Below, piece by piece: positions 18,878 to 26,336 of a DNA stretch of 64,000 nt (its first letter is position 1; the number at the start of each line of letters is the position of its first letter). The notes below the pieces were generated by a model. That model searched no databases, was not told the origin of the DNA, and was given only the letters and a program-made list of their open reading frames with translations. The stretch covers positions 1-64,000 of the forward strand of contig CALKLO010000023.1 in the NCBI GenBank assembly GCA_937991945.1, given 5' to 3'. The translations under genes were made by a program, and so were the position numbers. Source of the DNA: an uncultured Granulosicoccus sp. (lineage in GTDB: Bacteria > Pseudomonadota > Gammaproteobacteria > Granulosicoccales > Granulosicoccaceae).

Positions 18878-21800
18878 CTATTGAACAGCGAATTCAACAC
18901 GGCGATTAGCTGAACGGCCTTCTTTCGTTGCATTGCTTGCACGAGGATTTGATTCGCCAAACGCTTGAGGCTTTAGGCGTGAACCTGCAATACCTTGATC
19001 AACGAGGTATCGAGATACTGAGATAGCGCGACGCTTTGACAGTTGAAGATTGTTAGCTGCAGGACCTTGGTTATCAGTGTGCGCTTCAACGGTAACAATC
19101 ACATCTGGAAATTCTCGAAGTGTTTGTGCAACGCCCTGTAGAACGAGTAGCGAGTCAGCGGTGAGTTGGTCAGACGCTGTTTGGAAATTAATGCCTTCAA
19201 TAACGCCGTCGAAGATTGCGCAACCGTCAGCTTTCACTGGAGATCCACGAGGTGATGTTGGGCACAGGTCAGAGTAGTCAGCAACACCATCAAAATCGGA
19301 GTCTAGAGGCAATGGCTGTAGCTCTGCGACAGGTTCAACACCTACCGCTGCAACTGTCGGAGTTGTTTCAATAGGCGCTGCTAGAGGCGGCGTGCTGCGA
19401 CCTGAATTATTGCCATCGAAACGATAGACAACGCCTAGCTGTGCATACTTTGCATCTGTTTCGTGAGCTGTCAGTTCGCCGCGCACGGCAAAGCCGTTGT
19501 CGAGGCCATACTCCACCCCCAGACCAGCTAAAACGTGTAAATCGTTTACACGTCGGTATTCAACTTCACTGACGTCATTTTGCAATGCGCCCAAACCGAG
19601 TCTGCCAAAAGCTGACAGACCGGTTCGGCGTGAACGATCGCGAGGATCGTTAATGCCGTAATAAAGGGCACTAACGCCTGCAACCGAATACCCGACAGTA
19701 CCTGCCGGGCTCAGTGTCGCCTCGCCCAAATCGGCGAGGTGACCTTCAACACTAAAACGGTTGGATAGATCATATCCAACCGTTGCAGAAAATCCAGCAC
19801 TACCGGAATCGTTAACGGAGGTGCCAATGACACCGTCCGTATTAGGATCCAACTGGCTTGTTAGTACTCCGCCACCGACGTACAGACGTCTTTCGAAGTC
19901 TGGGTCGGGGGTTGAGTTTCTACCAAAATCCATATCAAGACCTAGCGAGCTGCAGCCTGAAAGAACTGCTGTACTGGCGACAATTGCCGCCTGTACAGTC
20001 TTACGTCGCTTTGCACGGAAGCCTAAGAACATCAGACTTCCACCCAGCAGGAACATAACCGTAGGATCAGTTTTAGTAGTGGCTCCTATTGAACCAATAC
20101 TGCACCCTACTGCAGAACCACCTAAGCCAGTTTCAATCAACCCTGAGACGCTGCCGCCTGTGTTTTGATTAACGTCAGGCACACCGTCGTTGTCGGTATC
20201 CGGTAAATCAACAGGAGTGCCCTGAACCAGATCACCACCACTACCGTCACTGAATGGACCGGCGAAACCGTTTCCATCACTGTCAGGATCAGCGCTATCA
20301 ACAACACCGTCGTTGTCAGAATCAGGACCTGCTACGAAATCAGCATCAAAAGCGTCATCGATTCCGTCGCTATCCGTATCACTACCACGAGTTAGATCAA
20401 CATCGTTACTGTCAGGGATACCATCCATGTCAGCATCGCTAAGCAGGTCGCTGCGGGCATCACCGTTACTGTCAGTACCACCAGCTTCGACTAAATCACT
20501 AATACCGTCGTTATCACTGTCCAAATCAGTACTGTTCGGATTTCCATCGTTATCAGTATCCGTTTGAGCCGTTGGATTAGCAGCTACGTTGTCGTCTAAA
20601 CCGTCGCCATTAGCGTCAGTGAAGTTATCAACTTGTCCAGAATTGTCCTGGTCCATTGAAGAATCGGCCATTTCTACAAGATCAGAAAGTCCGTCTTGAT
20701 CACTATCCAAATCGCGAATATCAGGTATTCGATCACTGTCCGTGTCTCTCAATACAGTACCGCGTGACACCATGGAGTCATCAGCACCATCACCGTTTAG
20801 ATCAGTGAATGGAGTGATACGACCATGAGAGTCAGCACTTGGGTAACCAGATTCCAACACATCAAGTAATGAATCGTTATCTGAATCGAGATCGAGCATG
20901 TCTACAACACCATCGTTATCTGTGTCCAGACGAGCATCGCTAGCACCTACAGCAAGACCAAATCCATCAACGCTTGCAGCAGTAGATAGACGTCCACTGT
21001 TAGAAATAGAGTCACGACCTGCTTCCAGTGCATCATAAACACCGTCGTTGTCACTGTCTAAGTCTAGGAAATCAGGGACTGAATCGCCGTCAGTATCAAT
21101 AGCTGTTTCGCGGCTATCTAGAACACCGTCGTTATCACTATCGCGATCTAAGTAGTTAGCAACACCATCACTATCACTGTCGCCAGTGCCTTCGACTAGA
21201 TCAGCGATGCCGTCGTTGTCGTCATCAGGATCGAGTGAATTAACAATGCCGTCGTTATCAGAATCGACAGTGCCTGGGACTTCAGGAGTAGAACCGCTTC
21301 CGTCACCACCAAATTGCACTGAGTTATCTTGGTAGTCAGCAATGCCATCGCCGTTAGAGTCAGCAGGGTTTAGAGGATCGGAACCCGCTTCAACCGTGTC
21401 TGAAACTCCATCGTTATCTGAATCAGTTTCACGATAGTTGTCTGCACCGTCAGCATCTGAATCTGTCGGAGAGCTAGGGTTTCCGCCTGACTCAACGCGA
21501 TCAAGGATGGTGTCTGAATCCGAATCGGTATCACGGAAGTCCATCTGGCCATCGCCATCAGTATCAAACAATGGCAATGCTGAAGCTTGAATGCTGTCAT
21601 CAACACCTTTGCCATCCACGTCTGAGAAACCATCTATACGGCCATCAGAATCACTGTCTGTACCACCTGCTTCAACGATGTCGAAGATTCCATCACCGTC
21701 ACTATCGAGGTCTCTGAAATCTGGAATACCGTCGTTGTCGACATCTGCGTAAGAGTACGTCAGTTCGCAAGAATCAACATAAGTCTCAATGATGTCAGGG

Positions 21801-23023
21801 ATACCGTTGCTACCCACTGCAAAAGAGATGTCTATTGCACCGTTAGGAACTTGGTCCAGTGCGAAAACTGCCGCTGTATCAAGACGCGCTTCTAAGTTGT
21901 CAAGAATACCGTCGTTATCACTGTCCAGGTCATGAACGTCAGGAGTACCGTCGTTATCAGTATCTACTGAACTTGCATCAGGAAAACCGTTACCGTCTGC
22001 ATCAACGCCACCTTCGTCAACATCGAGAATACCGTCGTTGTCATCATCAAGGTCGTATTGGTTAGCAATACCATCACCGTCTGTATCAGGACCAGCCGTG
22101 ATATCAGGTGTTGTCGCTATGTCTTGATAATCAGGAATGCCGTCAGAATTGCTGTCAGTTGGAGACAATGGGTTCGGACCTGCTTCAACCTTGTCGCCTA
22201 CGCCATCACCGTCACTATCAGTTTCACGGTAGTCGGCTGCGCCGTCGTAATCTGAATCATTGGGAAAGCTAGGGTTACCACCACCTTCAACGCTGTCAGG
22301 GATTCTGTCAGAGTCTGAATCTAGGTCACGAAAATCCTTCTCGCCGTCGCCATCTGTGTCGAACAATGGCAATGCCGTGGACTGAATAGTGTCATCAACA
22401 CCTTTGCCATCTGCGTCAGAGAAGCCATCGATGCGACCGTCAGAATCGTTATCAATGCCGCCTGCTTCAATAATATCGAAGATTCCATCACCGTCACTGT
22501 CAGTGTCTCTGTAGTCAGGGACGCCGTCGTTATCAGTATCAGAGATGCTGTAGGTCAGCACGCCTGAATCAGAGTTGGTCTCTATTATGTTAGCAACGCC
22601 GTTGCTACCAACCGCTACGGAGATATCGATCGCACCATTAGGAACTTGGTCCAAAGCGGTGACTGCATCGCTATCAAGACGTGCTTCCATGTTGTCTAGG
22701 ATACCGTCATTGTCACTATCCAAATCGTGCACATCAGGTGTGCCGTCATTGTCAGTATCAATAGAGCTAGCATCTGGAAATCCGTCTCCGTTAGCGTCAA
22801 CGCCACCTTCTGAACTATCAAGGATTCCGTCGTTATCGTCATCTAGATCGAATTGATTGGCAATACCATCGCCGTCGGTATCTGGGCCATCTGCAGACTG
22901 CGCAAAGGCTCCGGCGGAAACAGTACCCAACGCTAGACTAATGGCAACTGCCAATACGCTAGGTAGTACCGAAATTTTCGAGCCCGGCTGGGCTAAAAGT
23001 CTATGTAAATTATAATTAATCAT
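18878..23023 (-). CDS. Giant TSP3-repeat protein fused to a lipoprotein-like OmpA-family barrel protein
   Basis: A predicted 1381-residue envelope protein from ATG 23023, preceded by GGAAG. An in-frame start 22 codons upstream (23089) lies in a structured leader. Order of parts, in residues from ATG 23023: signal peptide (about 1-43, ending SAGAFA); about 900 residues of Asp-rich calcium-binding thrombospondin type 3 repeats (DxDxDGxxD pattern), including a 265-residue tandem duplication; a sorting-signal-like block near 973-1010 (GCSIG, DPTVMFLLGGSLMFLGF, RAKRRK); immediately after it a second secretion-like segment ending in lipobox LSGC (Cys near 1024); an outer-membrane barrel-like domain starting RRLYVGGGV; a short TSP3 unit (DSDFDGVADYSDLCP); and a C-terminal OmpA peptidoglycan-binding domain with LSKRRAISVSRYL. 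The frame is open throughout. Two ancestral genes seem joined here. It shares its last third with the next two genes. Confidence 0.85.
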   Translation of the reverse strand: MINYNLHRLLAQPGSKISVLPSVLAVAISLALGTVSAGAFAQSADGPDTDGDGIANQFDLDDDNDGILDSSEGGVDANGDGFPDASSIDTDNDGTPDVHDLDSDNDGILDNMEARLDSDAVTALDQVPNGAIDISVAVGSNGVANIIETNSDSGVLTYSISDTDNDGVPDYRDTDSDGDGIFDIIEAGGIDNDSDGRIDGFSDADGKGVDDTIQSTALPLFDTDGDGEKDFRDLDSDSDRIPDSVEGGGNPSFPNDSDYDGAADYRETDSDGDGVGDKVEAGPNPLSPTDSNSDGIPDYQDIATTPDITAGPDTDGDGIANQYDLDDDNDGILDVDEGGVDADGNGFPDASSVDTDNDGTPDVHDLDSDNDGILDNLEARLDTAAVFALDQVPNGAIDISFAVGSNGIPDIIETYVDSCELTYSYADVDNDGIPDFRDLDSDGDGIFDIVEAGGTDSDSDGRIDGFSDVDGKGVDDSIQASALPLFDTDGDGQMDFRDTDSDSDTILDRVESGGNPSSPTDSDADGADNYRETDSDNDGVSDTVEAGSDPLNPADSNGDGIADYQDNSVQFGGDGSGSTPEVPGTVDSDNDGIVNSLDPDDDNDGIADLVEGTGDSDSDGVANYLDRDSDNDGVLDSRETAIDTDGDSVPDFLDLDSDNDGVYDALEAGRDSISNSGRLSTAASVDGFGLAVGASDARLDTDNDGVVDMLDLDSDNDSLLDVLESGYPSADSHGRITPFTDLNGDGADDSMVSRGTVLRDTDSDRIPDIRDLDSDQDGLSDLVEMADSSMDQDNSGQVDNFTDANGDGLDDNVAANPTAQTDTDNDGNPNSTDLDSDNDGISDLVEAGGTDSNGDARSDLLSDADMDGIPDSNDVDLTRGSDTDSDGIDDAFDADFVAGPDSDNDGVVDSADPDSDGNGFAGPFSDGSGGDLVQGTPVDLPDTDNDGVPDVNQNTGGSVSGLIETGLGGSAVGCSIGSIGATTKTDPTVMFLLGGSLMFLGFRAKRRKTVQAAIVASTAVLSGCSSLGLDMDFGRNSTPDPDFERRLYVGGGVLTSQLDPNTDGVIGTSVNDSGSAGFSATVGYDLSNRFSVEGHLADLGEATLSPAGTVGYSVAGVSALYYGINDPRDRSRRTGLSAFGRLGLGALQNDVSEVEYRRVNDLHVLAGLGVEYGLDNGFAVRGELTAHETDAKYAQLGVVYRFDGNNSGRSTPPLAAPIETTPTVAAVGVEPVAELQPLPLDSDFDGVADYSDLCPTSPRGSPVKADGCAIFDGVIEGINFQTASDQLTADSLLVLQGVAQTLREFPDVIVTVEAHTDNQGPAANNLQLSKRRAISVSRYLVDQGIAGSRLKPQAFGESNPRASNATKEGRSANRRVEFAVQ
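21299..22888 (-). repeat. 795-bp in-frame tandem duplication within the TSP3 gene
   Basis: Two consecutive units, 22888-22094 and 22093-21299, encode matching 265-residue segments. Both open with GPDTDGDGIANQ and keep the same order of landmarks: DASS.DTDNDGTPDVHD, LDQVPNGAIDIS, SDGRIDGFSD and PDYQD or ADYQD. Equivalent codons are exactly 795 bp apart (for example 22132 and 21337). The copies differ at many residues, so the duplication is not recent. Confidence 0.9.
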
Positions 23024-23220: not shown

Positions 23221-25143
23221 CTACTTTGGCCAACTGGCCAATACTCGAATTTCTACACGTCGGTTACGTGCTCTGTCTGCCTCAGTCAAATTTTGTACCA
23301 AAGGCAATAGCCCACCATAACCTTCTGCTCGCATTCGTTCTTGCTCAATACCACTTGCAACTAAATAATTGAGAACTGCTTCCGCGCGCTTTATGGACAA
23401 GCTCACATTTTGTGCTTCATCACCCACATCATCCGTATGCGCCATAATCGCAATCGCGACCGAAGGATTCGCTAATAACTCCTTTAATAAGGGCTTTAAC
23501 GCAGCATCACTCGCGCCATCTAACGTATCAACACCCGACGAAAACGTTATGCCGTCGACTATGCCTGATATTGTTAAGCCTGGCGCGTAGCCTGGAACGG
23601 GTAGCGCTTTTTTTATAGATGGAATATTTTGTGACGTAGTTTTTATTTTCTCTTTTGTTGGAACACGGCTTCTTGATGTTACCTTCGTAGGTGTTGTCAT
23701 TAACAATGATGACGATAGATTTGCTCTCGAAGCAATCTTTGATTCCGGCACTTTGTTGCCTGACCATAACTCTCGAGGATGCCCTACTCTTTTAGCGTTA
23801 CCTGAATAAACGGTAACGATTGGTACTTCTTTTTTAACGCCTAAATTCGATGTGTTAACCACTTCAGGTTTTACTAAGGCATCTCGATCTGGAAGTGTTA
23901 TCAATTCCACGCGCCTATTTTGGAGTCGCCCCTGTGCAGATTCATTAGAAGCAATAGGCTCTAACTCACCCACTCCAAGTGCTTGAAGCTGTAGCGGATT
24001 AACACCTCGGCTATGCAGATAGCGAACGACGGCTTGCGCTCGCCGAATCGAATGCGCTAGGTTTCTTTCCTCCAACCCTTTGGAATCTGTGTGTGCTTTT
24101 ACCTGCACTCGAGCTTCAGGAAAAGCTAACAACGTTTGTGCAACGTTATCGAGTTGTTCACGCGCTGCGGTGGAGAGCAAATGTGAACCAGTTGTAAACG
24201 TTACAGCTCGGAGAACTTCATCAAATAAACCACAACCGTCACTACCCACAGTGACAAATGGCCGCGTATTCGAGCAACCGTCTTCACTGTCCAACACACC
24301 GTCTGAATCTTGATCGTCCGCCCGAACAGTCGGACGCCATCGATCAGCCAACGTGTGCTGCATGAGTTTCTTTTGTTCCAAATTTAGCAATCGTTCAGGT
24401 GTAAGAACCGGCGTTTGCGTTTCAACTTGAATGACGGGTGCAGGCTCACTTGGCGCAACAGCCGCAAGCACCGGTTCAAGTGGCTGATTAACAACAGATG
24501 ACTGTTGAGAAGGAACGCCAAACCGGTAAATAGCGCCAATACCTGCAAAAGAAGCATCGCGATCATAGCGAGTTACTTCAGCACGGATCCCCAAGCCGTT
24601 GGAAAAACCATACTCAGCACCCAATCCAACGATAGGCACTGTTCCACGAAATTCGAGTTCTTCAACAACTGATTCTTTACTTAGCGAGCCATAACCAAAG
24701 CGTGCGTAAGCCGAAACACCTTCACGACGTGAGCGCATCCGCACACCATTCAAACCATAAACTAACGCGCTTATGGCGGACGATGAAAATTCAACATCGG
24801 TAGCGGCTTCGCTGAGCGATGAAGCGCCTAGTGAAGCCACATCGAATTCCACAGCAAGCATATTGTGAACGTCATATCCCAAACGCACTTGCGTACCAAC
24901 ATCGTTAGCAGAGTCCACCTCGAAAGGGGTACCACGTGTTTGAGGTTCGAGCCGGGATTGCCCAAACGATGCCCCCGCATAAAAGCGGGAGGCAAAGTCG
25001 GTTGTATTTGATGGCAGGTCGACCGAGGCCTGCCTAGATACCGATTGGCATCCTAAAAGGACTACGCAAAGCATCGATACCGCAAGTGATCGGCACGTAA
25101 GGCGTCCGAAAAAGCAGGTCGAAACCTTGAACGTTTGCATCAC
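23221..25143 (-). CDS. OmpA-family lipoprotein with two tandem OmpA C-terminal domains
   Basis: A 640-residue predicted outer-membrane lipoprotein. The N-terminal signal ends in lipobox LLGC (Cys near residue 32). Residues about 50-210 form a barrel-like domain (FYAGASFGQSRLEP to GIGAIYRFG) closely resembling that of the neighbouring genes. A short TSP3-like motif DQDSDGVLDSEDGC precedes the first OmpA domain (about 310-425, with HTDSKGLEERN and RAQAVVRYLHSRG). After a basic Ser/Thr/Lys linker a second OmpA domain (about 525-640, with HTDDVGDEAQN and RAEAVLNYLVASG) follows. Two peptidoglycan-binding domains in one chain are unusual. The start overlaps the upstream gene by 4 bp (ATGA). Confidence 0.85.
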   Translation of the reverse strand: MMQTFKVSTCFFGRLTCRSLAVSMLCVVLLGCQSVSRQASVDLPSNTTDFASRFYAGASFGQSRLEPQTRGTPFEVDSANDVGTQVRLGYDVHNMLAVEFDVASLGASSLSEAATDVEFSSSAISALVYGLNGVRMRSRREGVSAYARFGYGSLSKESVVEELEFRGTVPIVGLGAEYGFSNGLGIRAEVTRYDRDASFAGIGAIYRFGVPSQQSSVVNQPLEPVLAAVAPSEPAPVIQVETQTPVLTPERLLNLEQKKLMQHTLADRWRPTVRADDQDSDGVLDSEDGCSNTRPFVTVGSDGCGLFDEVLRAVTFTTGSHLLSTAAREQLDNVAQTLLAFPEARVQVKAHTDSKGLEERNLAHSIRRAQAVVRYLHSRGVNPLQLQALGVGELEPIASNESAQGRLQNRRVELITLPDRDALVKPEVVNTSNLGVKKEVPIVTVYSGNAKRVGHPRELWSGNKVPESKIASRANLSSSLLMTTPTKVTSRSRVPTKEKIKTTSQNIPSIKKALPVPGYAPGLTISGIVDGITFSSGVDTLDGASDAALKPLLKELLANPSVAIAIMAHTDDVGDEAQNVSLSIKRAEAVLNYLVASGIEQERMRAEGYGGLLPLVQNLTEADRARNRRVEIRVLASWPK

Positions 25144-26336
25144 AGCACACGCAAGGACACACGGTTGTTCAAGCGACGACTTGCAGCTGAGCCATCGTTA
25201 AAGCGAGGCTCAGTAGAACCAAACGCTCGTGCTCTTAGGCGTTGCACATTGACACCCTGAGCAGCCAAAAATCGAGCGACTCCCATGACACGTTCTCTTG
25301 CGAGTTGCATTGCGCGACCAGGCTCTGCGTAGTCTTGAGTATGAACCTGAAGCTCAATCACTAATCGAGGATGATCGTTCATTGATACCGCCAAACTTTG
25401 CAGTAAATACTCTGAGTCTGGGGTTAAGAACGCACTATCAGCTCCAAACTCTACACCCTCAACGACACCTGAAAACAATGCGCAGCCTTGAGCATCTGTT
25501 GGCTCGCCCGCTGCTGGTGCATCGCACTGCCCAGAAGAGGCCACAGGAAAACCGGCGTTGAAGTCGGCGTTTTGATCAGTCCCAAACGGATCTACAGAAT
25601 CCATGGAATCAGTAGCAAACGGATCTTCGAAATCAGGATCGCTGAATCCACCATTGTTGTTGTCGTAGCTTTCGAATTCGTCTGCCCTTGATTGAGGGCT
25701 CGGCGTAGTCGGCGCGACAGGATCTGGCACACTCGCGCTAAACCCACCGCCGGACGTGACATCATCTTTTGATCGCCAGTAAACAGAAGCCATAGCCACT
25801 TGTGCATCACCATCAAAGCTAGACACTTCAGCACGAAGACCAAAGCGAGAACCCAAAGGATATTGCACACCTGCACCAATCCAGACCGCCGTATTGTCAG
25901 CCTCGTTAAGTACGATACCCGACTCGTTGGTGATGCTGTTTAAGCCCAAACGGACATAGCCGGAAAGCCCTGCTTGTCTGGCATCAATTCCGCGATTACG
26001 GTAAACGTACGCAATACCACCCACAGAAGCTGCGGTGTATCCGATATATTGATCGCCGGTTAGACCCGCTTCACCCAAATCAGTATAAGCCGCCTCAGCG
26101 CTAAGCCAGTCGTTGATATCCAACCCTAGGTAGACGCTAGCAGCCTGACTTTGCTCTTCTTCCAATGCGAAGGAGCTAGAGGCTGTATCGGGGCTGAGAT
26201 TTGATATTCCCCCTCCTACGCCGACATACCATGCTCCACCGGCAGCTGCCACTGAACTTGCGAGCAGTAAAGAGCCGCTCATGCCAATGGCTAAGGCGAT
26301 CGTATGTTGTTTTAATCCCGTCATTCTGAGACTCAT
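25140..26336 (-). CDS. OmpA-family outer-membrane barrel protein
   Basis: A 398-residue protein and the first of three related minus-strand genes. A signal peptide (cleavage near AAA-GGAWYVG, residue about 33) precedes an eight-strand-like barrel domain (YVGVGGGISNLSP to VAMASVYWRSKDD). A flexible Asp/Asn/Pro-rich linker (about 205-275) follows, then an OmpA C-terminal domain with LVIELQVHTQDYAEPGRAM and a final RRLNNRVSLRVL. Its HTQD replaces the usual HTD of peptidoglycan binding, so diaminopimelate contact may be altered. It overlaps the downstream gene by 4 bp. A structured leader with a T run lies upstream. Confidence 0.85.
   Translation of the reverse strand: MSLRMTGLKQHTIALAIGMSGSLLLASSVAAAGGAWYVGVGGGISNLSPDTASSSFALEEEQSQAASVYLGLDINDWLSAEAAYTDLGEAGLTGDQYIGYTAASVGGIAYVYRNRGIDARQAGLSGYVRLGLNSITNESGIVLNEADNTAVWIGAGVQYPLGSRFGLRAEVSSFDGDAQVAMASVYWRSKDDVTSGGGFSASVPDPVAPTTPSPQSRADEFESYDNNNGGFSDPDFEDPFATDSMDSVDPFGTDQNADFNAGFPVASSGQCDAPAAGEPTDAQGCALFSGVVEGVEFGADSAFLTPDSEYLLQSLAVSMNDHPRLVIELQVHTQDYAEPGRAMQLARERVMGVARFLAAQGVNVQRLRARAFGSTEPRFNDGSAASRRLNNRVSLRVL

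Follow-up and report, generated by a model that had tools for sequence, protein, structure and literature searches.

The gene described here lies at 18878-23023 on the minus strand of the 64,000-nucleotide stretch of DNA analysed (the window), and all features given below are on that strand. It is an open reading frame of 1381 aa which, as read from the ORF, is free of stops from 23023 to 18881. The chain opens with an N-terminal export signal peptide (aa 1-41, 22901..23023) recognized by hydropathy; aa 17-33 form the most hydrophobic 17-residue stretch of the whole chain, and the cleavage site, between AFA and Q, was placed by eye. The following putative surface domain (aa 42-960, 20144..22900) is rich in TSP3-like D-x-D-x-D-G motifs. 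The original prediction of a TSP3 surface part holds for the repeats, which are plain by eye in the protein, but not for the profiles: in a Pfam search both TSP_3 and TSP3_bac stayed under their cut-offs, and the assignment rests on the sequence with weak Pfam TSP3 and NCBIfam MtsC matches.

Behind this domain lies an internal sorting tag of the JDVT-CTERM type, TGLGGSAVGCSIGSIGATTKTDPTVMFLLGGSLMFLGFRAKRRK (aa 965-1008, 20000..20131), identified by a match to NF033191 with an E of 3.5e-5 and by a family Cys-tail profile. Its block GCSIG...DPTVMFLLGGSLMFLGFRAKRRK (20107-20000) holds, in order, Cys974, DP, a helix and RAKRRK. Cys974 (20102..20104) is the predicted point of lipidation and of cleavage by MrtJ, a prediction based on its invariance among homologues. 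The tag is followed by a second, internal signal-peptide segment, TVQAAIVASTAVLSG (aa 1009-1023, 19955..19999), inferred from a hydropathy peak and from the cleavage motifs of homologues, and by the lipobox LSGC (19952..19963), whose Cys1024 is the predicted first residue of a C-terminal lipoprotein. In a 17-residue hydropathy scan the tag helix and the second segment are the strongest hydrophobic segments after the N-terminal signal peptide. A basic n-region, a hydrophobic stretch and a lipobox (RAKRRK-TVQAAIVASTAVLSGC) together meet the definition of a lipoprotein signal, yet this one is not at the precursor's N-terminus, beginning at about residue 1002; in split orthologues it is N-terminal. 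An internal sorting signal followed by an internal lipobox (19963-19952) in an open frame, as originally proposed, is thus what the locus contains.

The rest of the chain is an outer-membrane protein. An 8-stranded beta-barrel (aa 1046-1201, 19421..19888) is predicted by the AlphaFold2 model, which has eight strands in this region, and by Foldseek matches to solved OmpA barrels, with only a weak match to OmpA_membrane (Pfam). A short TSP3-like linker, DSDFDGVADYSDLC (19262..19303), leads from the barrel to the OmpA domain; it is assigned by sequence, the TSP_3 stretch at 1241-1258 being under the cut-off. The OmpA peptidoglycan-binding domain (aa 1280-1374, 18902..19186) is matched by PF00691 (E 2.9e-20; 72.9 bits, gathering score of 27.2 met) and, in Foldseek, by the C-domains of OprF, YiaD and Pal. 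Upstream are genes for a lipoprotein-type barrel with two OmpA domains (23221..25143) and for an OmpA-barrel protein with a signal-peptidase-I-type signal (25140..26336), the latter overlapping the next gene by 4 nt. Their likeness to the C-terminal half of the fused gene had been noted at the outset, and barrel identities of 41% and 32% support it. In relatives, a double-OmpA gene of 600-725 aa likewise stands upstream of the fused or split gene.

The internal tag, its predicted protease and the second signal

On the tail itself NF033191 scores 21.7-24.2 bits (E 2.2e-5 to 1.3e-4). The suggested check against CTERM profiles therefore gave a divided answer: the tail is the top NF033191 match genome-wide, but remains under the 27-bit cut-off of the profile. 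A fused relative in another genome reaches 31.8 bits, and the best tail has an E of 2.7e-13. Since 37 of 40 tails at the same position in homologues (fused, or on their own) match JDVT-CTERM at E<=0.1, the tag block is beyond chance. The family Cys-tail profile finds the internal tag and nothing else in the genome. The Cys is invariant in all 34 Cys-type tails and in 27/27 aligned fused proteins, contrary to the possibility, raised beforehand as a refutation, that homologues would lack the sorting motif. All elements of JDVT-CTERM (invariant Cys, DP, helix, basic end) are present, but the tag is not at the extreme C-terminus, with 373 residues after it compared with 0-38 after terminal tails.

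The genome encodes MrtJ (NF033192, 106.6 bits against a cut-off of 75) with the active-site motifs EExxxR and HxxxN, and also the secretin GspD. MrtJ is present in 16/16 genomes with Cys-type tails beside or within such OmpA genes and in 2 of the 20 having only Cys-less tails (Fisher 4e-8; 1e-4 with families as units). In genomes without MrtJ the corresponding internal position is taken by a tag of another kind that lacks the Cys, and the Cys of the fused protein is kept only where MrtJ exists. Among Cys-less tags at the equivalent internal or split position, 14/31 match TIGR03501 at E<=0.1. In Granulosicoccaceae MrtJ adjoins an OmpA-barrel gene; in other families the tagged gene, the OmpA gene and the MrtJ gene are neighbours, MrtJ following the OmpA gene at a distance of about 1 kb. 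A rhombosortase is also encoded in the window genome.

The second segments of homologues end in a lipobox or in a signal-peptidase-I-like site, the latter mostly AxA-like. A lipobox was found in 21 of 39, where shuffles give an expectation of 1.3.

Fused and split relatives

Besides the window protein, about 40 fused proteins of Granulosicoccaceae and about 28 from 12 other gammaproteobacterial families have the same open frame across the junction, and those of the other families rule out a one-off fusion. The architecture, the invariant Cys, the DP, the basic loop and the second signal are conserved across many species. Where it could be measured, dN/dS at the junction is 0.10-0.17, which marks its codons as subject to purifying selection.

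Orthologous loci also contain the two proteins as separate genes. In split orthologues of the same genus, gene 1 stops directly after the tail and gene 2 starts in another frame, several of the pairs sharing a 4-nt overlap (ATGA), so that the same elements form a true C-terminal tag and a true N-terminal signal. This agrees with the proposal that two genes merged with both signals kept. Fused and split forms interleave on the tree, and the two states therefore look functionally interchangeable.

A polyprotein model and its alternatives

Because the same pair of proteins is encoded in relatives by a single fused gene or by two genes that overlap, the reading we favour, and consider probable, is that the gene encodes a polyprotein from which MrtJ and LspA release, in a 1:1 ratio, an adhesin anchored by a lipid and the barrel/OmpA protein that partners it. 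The architecture, its conservation, the split orthologues, the presence of MrtJ and GspD and the correlation of the Cys with MrtJ can be read from the sequences. Both cleavages, including that by MrtJ near Cys974, are inferred, as are the lipid on Cys974, the surface location and the adhesion; there are no protein data. In this model the TSP3 part would be exported by Sec as far as the tag helix (aa ~986-1001), which would act as a stop-transfer segment and leave RAKRRK in the cytoplasm. Export would resume for the OmpA part at the segment aa 1009-1023, which would serve as a lipoprotein signal within the chain. Cys974 would probably be lipidated and the chain cut beside it by MrtJ; Cys1024 would be lipidated by Lgt, with LspA cutting before it. 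The predicted products are a surface protein of ~930 aa with a lipid at its C-terminus, for which type II secretion is the probable route to the surface, and a barrel/OmpA lipoprotein of ~358 aa that may hold the outer membrane and the peptidoglycan, while a hairpin of ~50 aa would be discarded. The two would be cognate partners acting 1:1, in the manner of TraA, an adhesin, and TraB, which combines barrel, TSP3 and OmpA parts. Several points count against the model. The experimentally tested CTERM tags in the literature consulted are all at the extreme C-terminus, and use by MrtJ of a tag with ~370 residues after it has not been shown; the tail's own score is below the profile cut-off; and the in-frame ATG at aa 998 could be an internal start in this gene and in that of the genome G015.

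Such an internal start would let ribosomes begin again within the tag helix (MFLGFRAKRRKTVQAAIV..LSGC), giving the OmpA lipoprotein as a product of its own and leaving the long fused chain as a minor or failed form. From aa 998 onward the sequence makes a textbook lipoprotein signal, and the ATG is preceded by a Shine-Dalgarno match of 4 nt in the window and of 7 nt in G015 (GGAGGTAGCCTGATG). Nevertheless, neither the start position nor the ribosome site is conserved: in 6/41 fused genes this part of the sequence contains no ATG, and in many no start codon is preceded by a Shine-Dalgarno match of at least 4. The Gly-Gly-Ser codons that mimic a ribosome site encode a helix feature common to split orthologues, and fused chains are still expected from the upstream start. 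A universal internal start is rejected for want of a conserved start or Shine-Dalgarno site; for the window gene it is unlikely without being excluded. Alternatively, the lipoprotein site alone may be cut, LspA freeing the OmpA part while the tag, without MrtJ, does no more than hold the TSP3 part at the inner membrane. The score of the tail under the NF033191 cut-off would fit, and cleavage of internal signal peptides is reported for viral precursors (PMC5113920). This possibility appears improbable, as it leaves aside that the Cys of fused proteins occurs only where MrtJ exists and that MrtJ-less genomes have a Cys-less tag in its place.

A two-domain membrane protein that is never cleaved, with the hairpin as permanent anchor, can appeal to the absence of direct evidence of processing. 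However, only ~22 residues join the second helix to the barrel, too short, as inferred from the AlphaFold2 model and hydropathy, to reach from an inner-membrane hairpin to the outer membrane; cleavage motifs in the second segments exceed chance, and orthologues are two separate proteins. We regard it as very improbable. A stop codon masked by a mistake in sequencing or assembly, which was named at the outset as what would overturn the fusion, could be suspected in a fragmented draft of 158 contigs, yet the chance of it is negligible, since the junction is likewise open in ~40 proteins of relatives and 28 of other families. The comparative data refute a missed stop: many independent assemblies have an uninterrupted frame here, and purifying selection acts on the codons of the junction.

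Returning to the polyprotein model, it seems reasonably likely that the gene belongs to a class widespread in gammaproteobacteria, in which a nominally C-terminal tag works internally together with an internal signal peptide, and in which the adhesin and the barrel/peptidoglycan anchor belonging to it are both released from one precursor through the combined action of a signal peptidase and an intramembrane sorting protease. The tag type, MrtJ-type Cys or rhombosortase-type Gly-Gly, would be exchangeable according to the host protease.

Relation to known systems

The MYXO-, JDVT- and GlyGly-CTERM have been treated as protein-ending tags; here they lie inside the chain, with a complete protein following, in about 13 families. 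If processed, these precursors would represent a recurrent bacterial polyprotein strategy that fixes a 1:1 supply of adhesin and outer-membrane anchor. A genus with both fused and split orthologues is a ready natural experiment. In the literature consulted, a search for polyproteins of bacteria that carry internal signals turned up only viral examples or nothing to the point. The cytochrome b/c1 precursor of Bradyrhizobium is a precedent.

The bunyavirus Gn/Gc polyprotein (PMC5113920) similarly has a stop-transfer helix, a short cytosolic stretch and an internal signal peptide, and yields two envelope proteins from a single precursor, but it belongs to a eukaryotic virus, uses host signal peptidase and has no sorting tag or lipidation. 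The JDVT-CTERM/MrtJ pair (NF033191/NF033192) shares with the window protein the Cys motif, DP, helix, basic end and a dedicated protease in the genome, and differs in that the window tag is internal. Its neighbourhood is described in print as just MrtJ and one tagged protein (PMC11980579); our results point to barrel/OmpA proteins as the missing partners. The Cys-less tags of other genomes, which stand at the equivalent place in fused or split proteins, resemble the GlyGly-CTERM/rhombosortase system, a tag type other than that of the window protein.

The closest parallel in arrangement is TraA/TraB of Myxococcus xanthus, which serves outer membrane exchange. The genes are adjacent with a 4-base overlap, as in several split orthologues, and the partners act 1:1 (PMC3325183, PMC12045341). 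Like the putative adhesin of the window, the surface adhesin TraA carries a Cys-type CTERM tag, and cleavage by MrtX near such a tail has been demonstrated experimentally (PMC11980579). TraB has a signal peptide, an outer-membrane barrel, a short TSP3 linker and an OmpA domain, an order met by the window protein with the linker match under the Pfam cut-off. The window protein is not TraB itself (NF033763 gives 101.5 bits, at positions 351-498 only, against a cut-off of 700), and its domain content rules out TraA, which has a variable (PA14-like) domain and Cys-rich repeats in place of TSP3-like repeats. In myxobacteria the two are separate proteins with MYXO-CTERM and MrtX, whereas here they are joined, with JDVT-CTERM and MrtJ; the logic of TraA/TraB would thereby extend past the myxobacteria.

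Tag and lipobox within one chain

The open reading frame on the minus strand at 23023–18878 encodes a product of 1381 residues, in which an export signal (aa 1–41) is followed by a long TSP3-like repeat region and a JDVT-CTERM-type tail with GCSIG, DP, a helix and RAKRRK (aa 965–1008, window 20131–20000). A second hydrophobic segment ends in LSGC (aa 1021–1024, window 19963–19952) and leads into an outer-membrane barrel, which a short TSP3-like linker connects to an OmpA domain. The AlphaFold2 model of this C-half (mean pLDDT 77, pTM 0.46) contains eight strands and an OmpA fold with a disordered linker between them, and matches the solved structures of OmpA, OprF, YiaD and Pal.

The tail scores 21.7–24.2 bits against the JDVT-CTERM profile NF033191, below the cut-off of 27, and taken alone is therefore merely a sub-threshold match. 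The original prediction of a sorting-signal-like block inside the chain is borne out by the homologues, where 37 of the 40 tails at this internal position reach E≤0.1 against JDVT-CTERM. All 34 Cys-type tails, from fused proteins and split gene pairs together, match at E≤0.01, and in a fused relative from genome G213 the tag exceeds the cut-off inside a long protein (31.8 bits). The tag Cys is invariant across 27 aligned fused proteins. At the junction dN/dS is 0.10–0.17 in three fused pairs; between the window gene and that of G015, synonymous sites there are saturated (pS 0.81, pN 0.20). A lipobox occurs in 21 of 39 second segments, with 1.3 expected from shuffling. The contrast is weaker for lipobox or AxA (35 of 39, 20.3 expected) because AxA is a loose motif. 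Measured tails are followed either by 0–38 residues or by 337–396 residues of OmpA protein, with one exception, interrupted by a contig end.

Fused, split and absent forms

Fused orthologues (G000, G015, G006, G001 and others) and split ones occur in the same genus, and the separate genes sought at orthologous loci were thus found, in eight genomes. In five of these (G023, G018, G024, G011, G013) the tail stops a few residues past the basic stretch and an ATGA overlap starts the OmpA lipoprotein; the overlap is longer in G007, G019 and G026. In further species, G002, G003, G017 and G021, a separate OmpA lipoprotein directly follows the double-OmpA gene, with no tagged protein between them. The tree of C-halves has at least three changes for fused and at least two for split on well-supported branches, and therefore the two states have interconverted. 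Such interconversion makes most sense if both forms yield the same mature products.

The two genes transcribed immediately ahead of the window gene are OmpA-barrel paralogues, the nearer a lipoprotein-type barrel with two OmpA domains, and overlap each other by 4 nt (window 25140–25143). Many relatives have a double-OmpA gene of similar length ahead of the fused or split gene, which may point to a conserved envelope locus of three genes.

A wider search of 369 gammaproteobacterial genomes yielded about 28 additional fused proteins, judged by eye, in 12 other families, in the order tag, signal segment, barrel. In several families the gene order is tagged gene, OmpA gene and the gene of MrtJ, the JDVT-CTERM protease. 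All three are seen in G346 and G112, and a distance of about 1 kb separates MrtJ from the OmpA gene in G078, G340, G351, G099, G218 and G246. In G213 (contigs C258 and C131) a fused JDVT-tag/OmpA gene leaves the end of one contig, and the other opens with an OmpA end followed by mrtJ; this is probably an operon of fused gene and mrtJ broken by assembly. Elsewhere, fused OmpA modules terminate open frames of about 12,000 (L073, G028:C70) and 7,500 residues (L076, G005:C94), among the longest bacterial ORFs.

Tag type and protease

Of the 369 genomes, 53 have an MrtJ match above the cut-off. Where such an OmpA gene contains or adjoins a Cys-type tail, MrtJ is present in 16 of 16 genomes; where all tails at this place are Cys-less, it is present in 2 of 20 (Fisher p 4e-8; 1e-4 with families counted). 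These p-values are merely indicative, because the underlying table was compiled manually from related genomes. As far as sequence can tell, the tag type follows the protease present in the genome. The Cys-less tails are GlyGly-CTERM-like, with 14 of 31 matching at E≤0.1, and rhombosortase is present in those MrtJ-negative genomes of the table that were checked. The window's genome encodes both MrtJ and rhombosortase; a profile search found the internal tail as its sole Cys-type tail, and the same profile found none in four MrtJ-negative genomes.

In three fused proteins of MrtJ-positive species (L068 and L071 of G015, L072 of G019) the internal tag is now GlyGly-CTERM-like, with the lipobox-like segment after it and the OmpA part retained. 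Judged from sequence alone, this is tag swapping within a polyprotein.

An OmpA-barrel gene usually immediately precedes mrtJ in Granulosicoccaceae. For instance, at G000 C25:95549–97182 (L005, L025) mrtJ directly follows an OmpA-barrel gene whose product has an ordinary signal peptide and lacks a CTERM tag, a pair that recurs in most Granulosicoccaceae searched. The arrangement suggests that the neighbouring gene encodes a cognate barrel for the protease or for its substrate. G000 also carries a second adhesin/OmpA pair, in split form (C35:2740–6348, L002), where a protein with DSGTADSGSTDGAA repeats ends in a GG-type tail and its gene overlaps the start of an OmpA-barrel gene encoding 368 aa.

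Putative processing and known systems

The MrtJ relative MrtX of myxobacteria cuts near the tag Cys and the protein is surface-anchored, probably through lipid and type II secretion (PMC11980579). If the internal tag underwent MrtX-like steps and Lgt/LspA acted at the lipobox, two mature proteins would result, leaving a hairpin remnant. By analogy, processing of the window gene's product as a polyprotein is probable, in the absence of protein data. The barrel starts about 22 residues past Cys1024, and therefore an uncut inner-membrane hairpin is inferred to be hardly compatible with an outer-membrane barrel. The secretin GspD is encoded in the window's genome (606.6 bits). The window gene could still be translated from an internal start at the ATG of aa 998, which is preceded by a ribosome-site match of 4 nt (7 nt in G015); the site, however, is not conserved. 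Internal tags may already have been noted in earlier work.

The closest functional analogue of the two halves is TraA/TraB of Myxococcus, whose overlapping genes encode an adhesin with a tag and a partner built of barrel, TSP3 and OmpA parts (PMC3325183). TraA and TraB work 1:1 (PMC12045341), and fusion would make sense as a natural means of fixing such a 1:1 supply.
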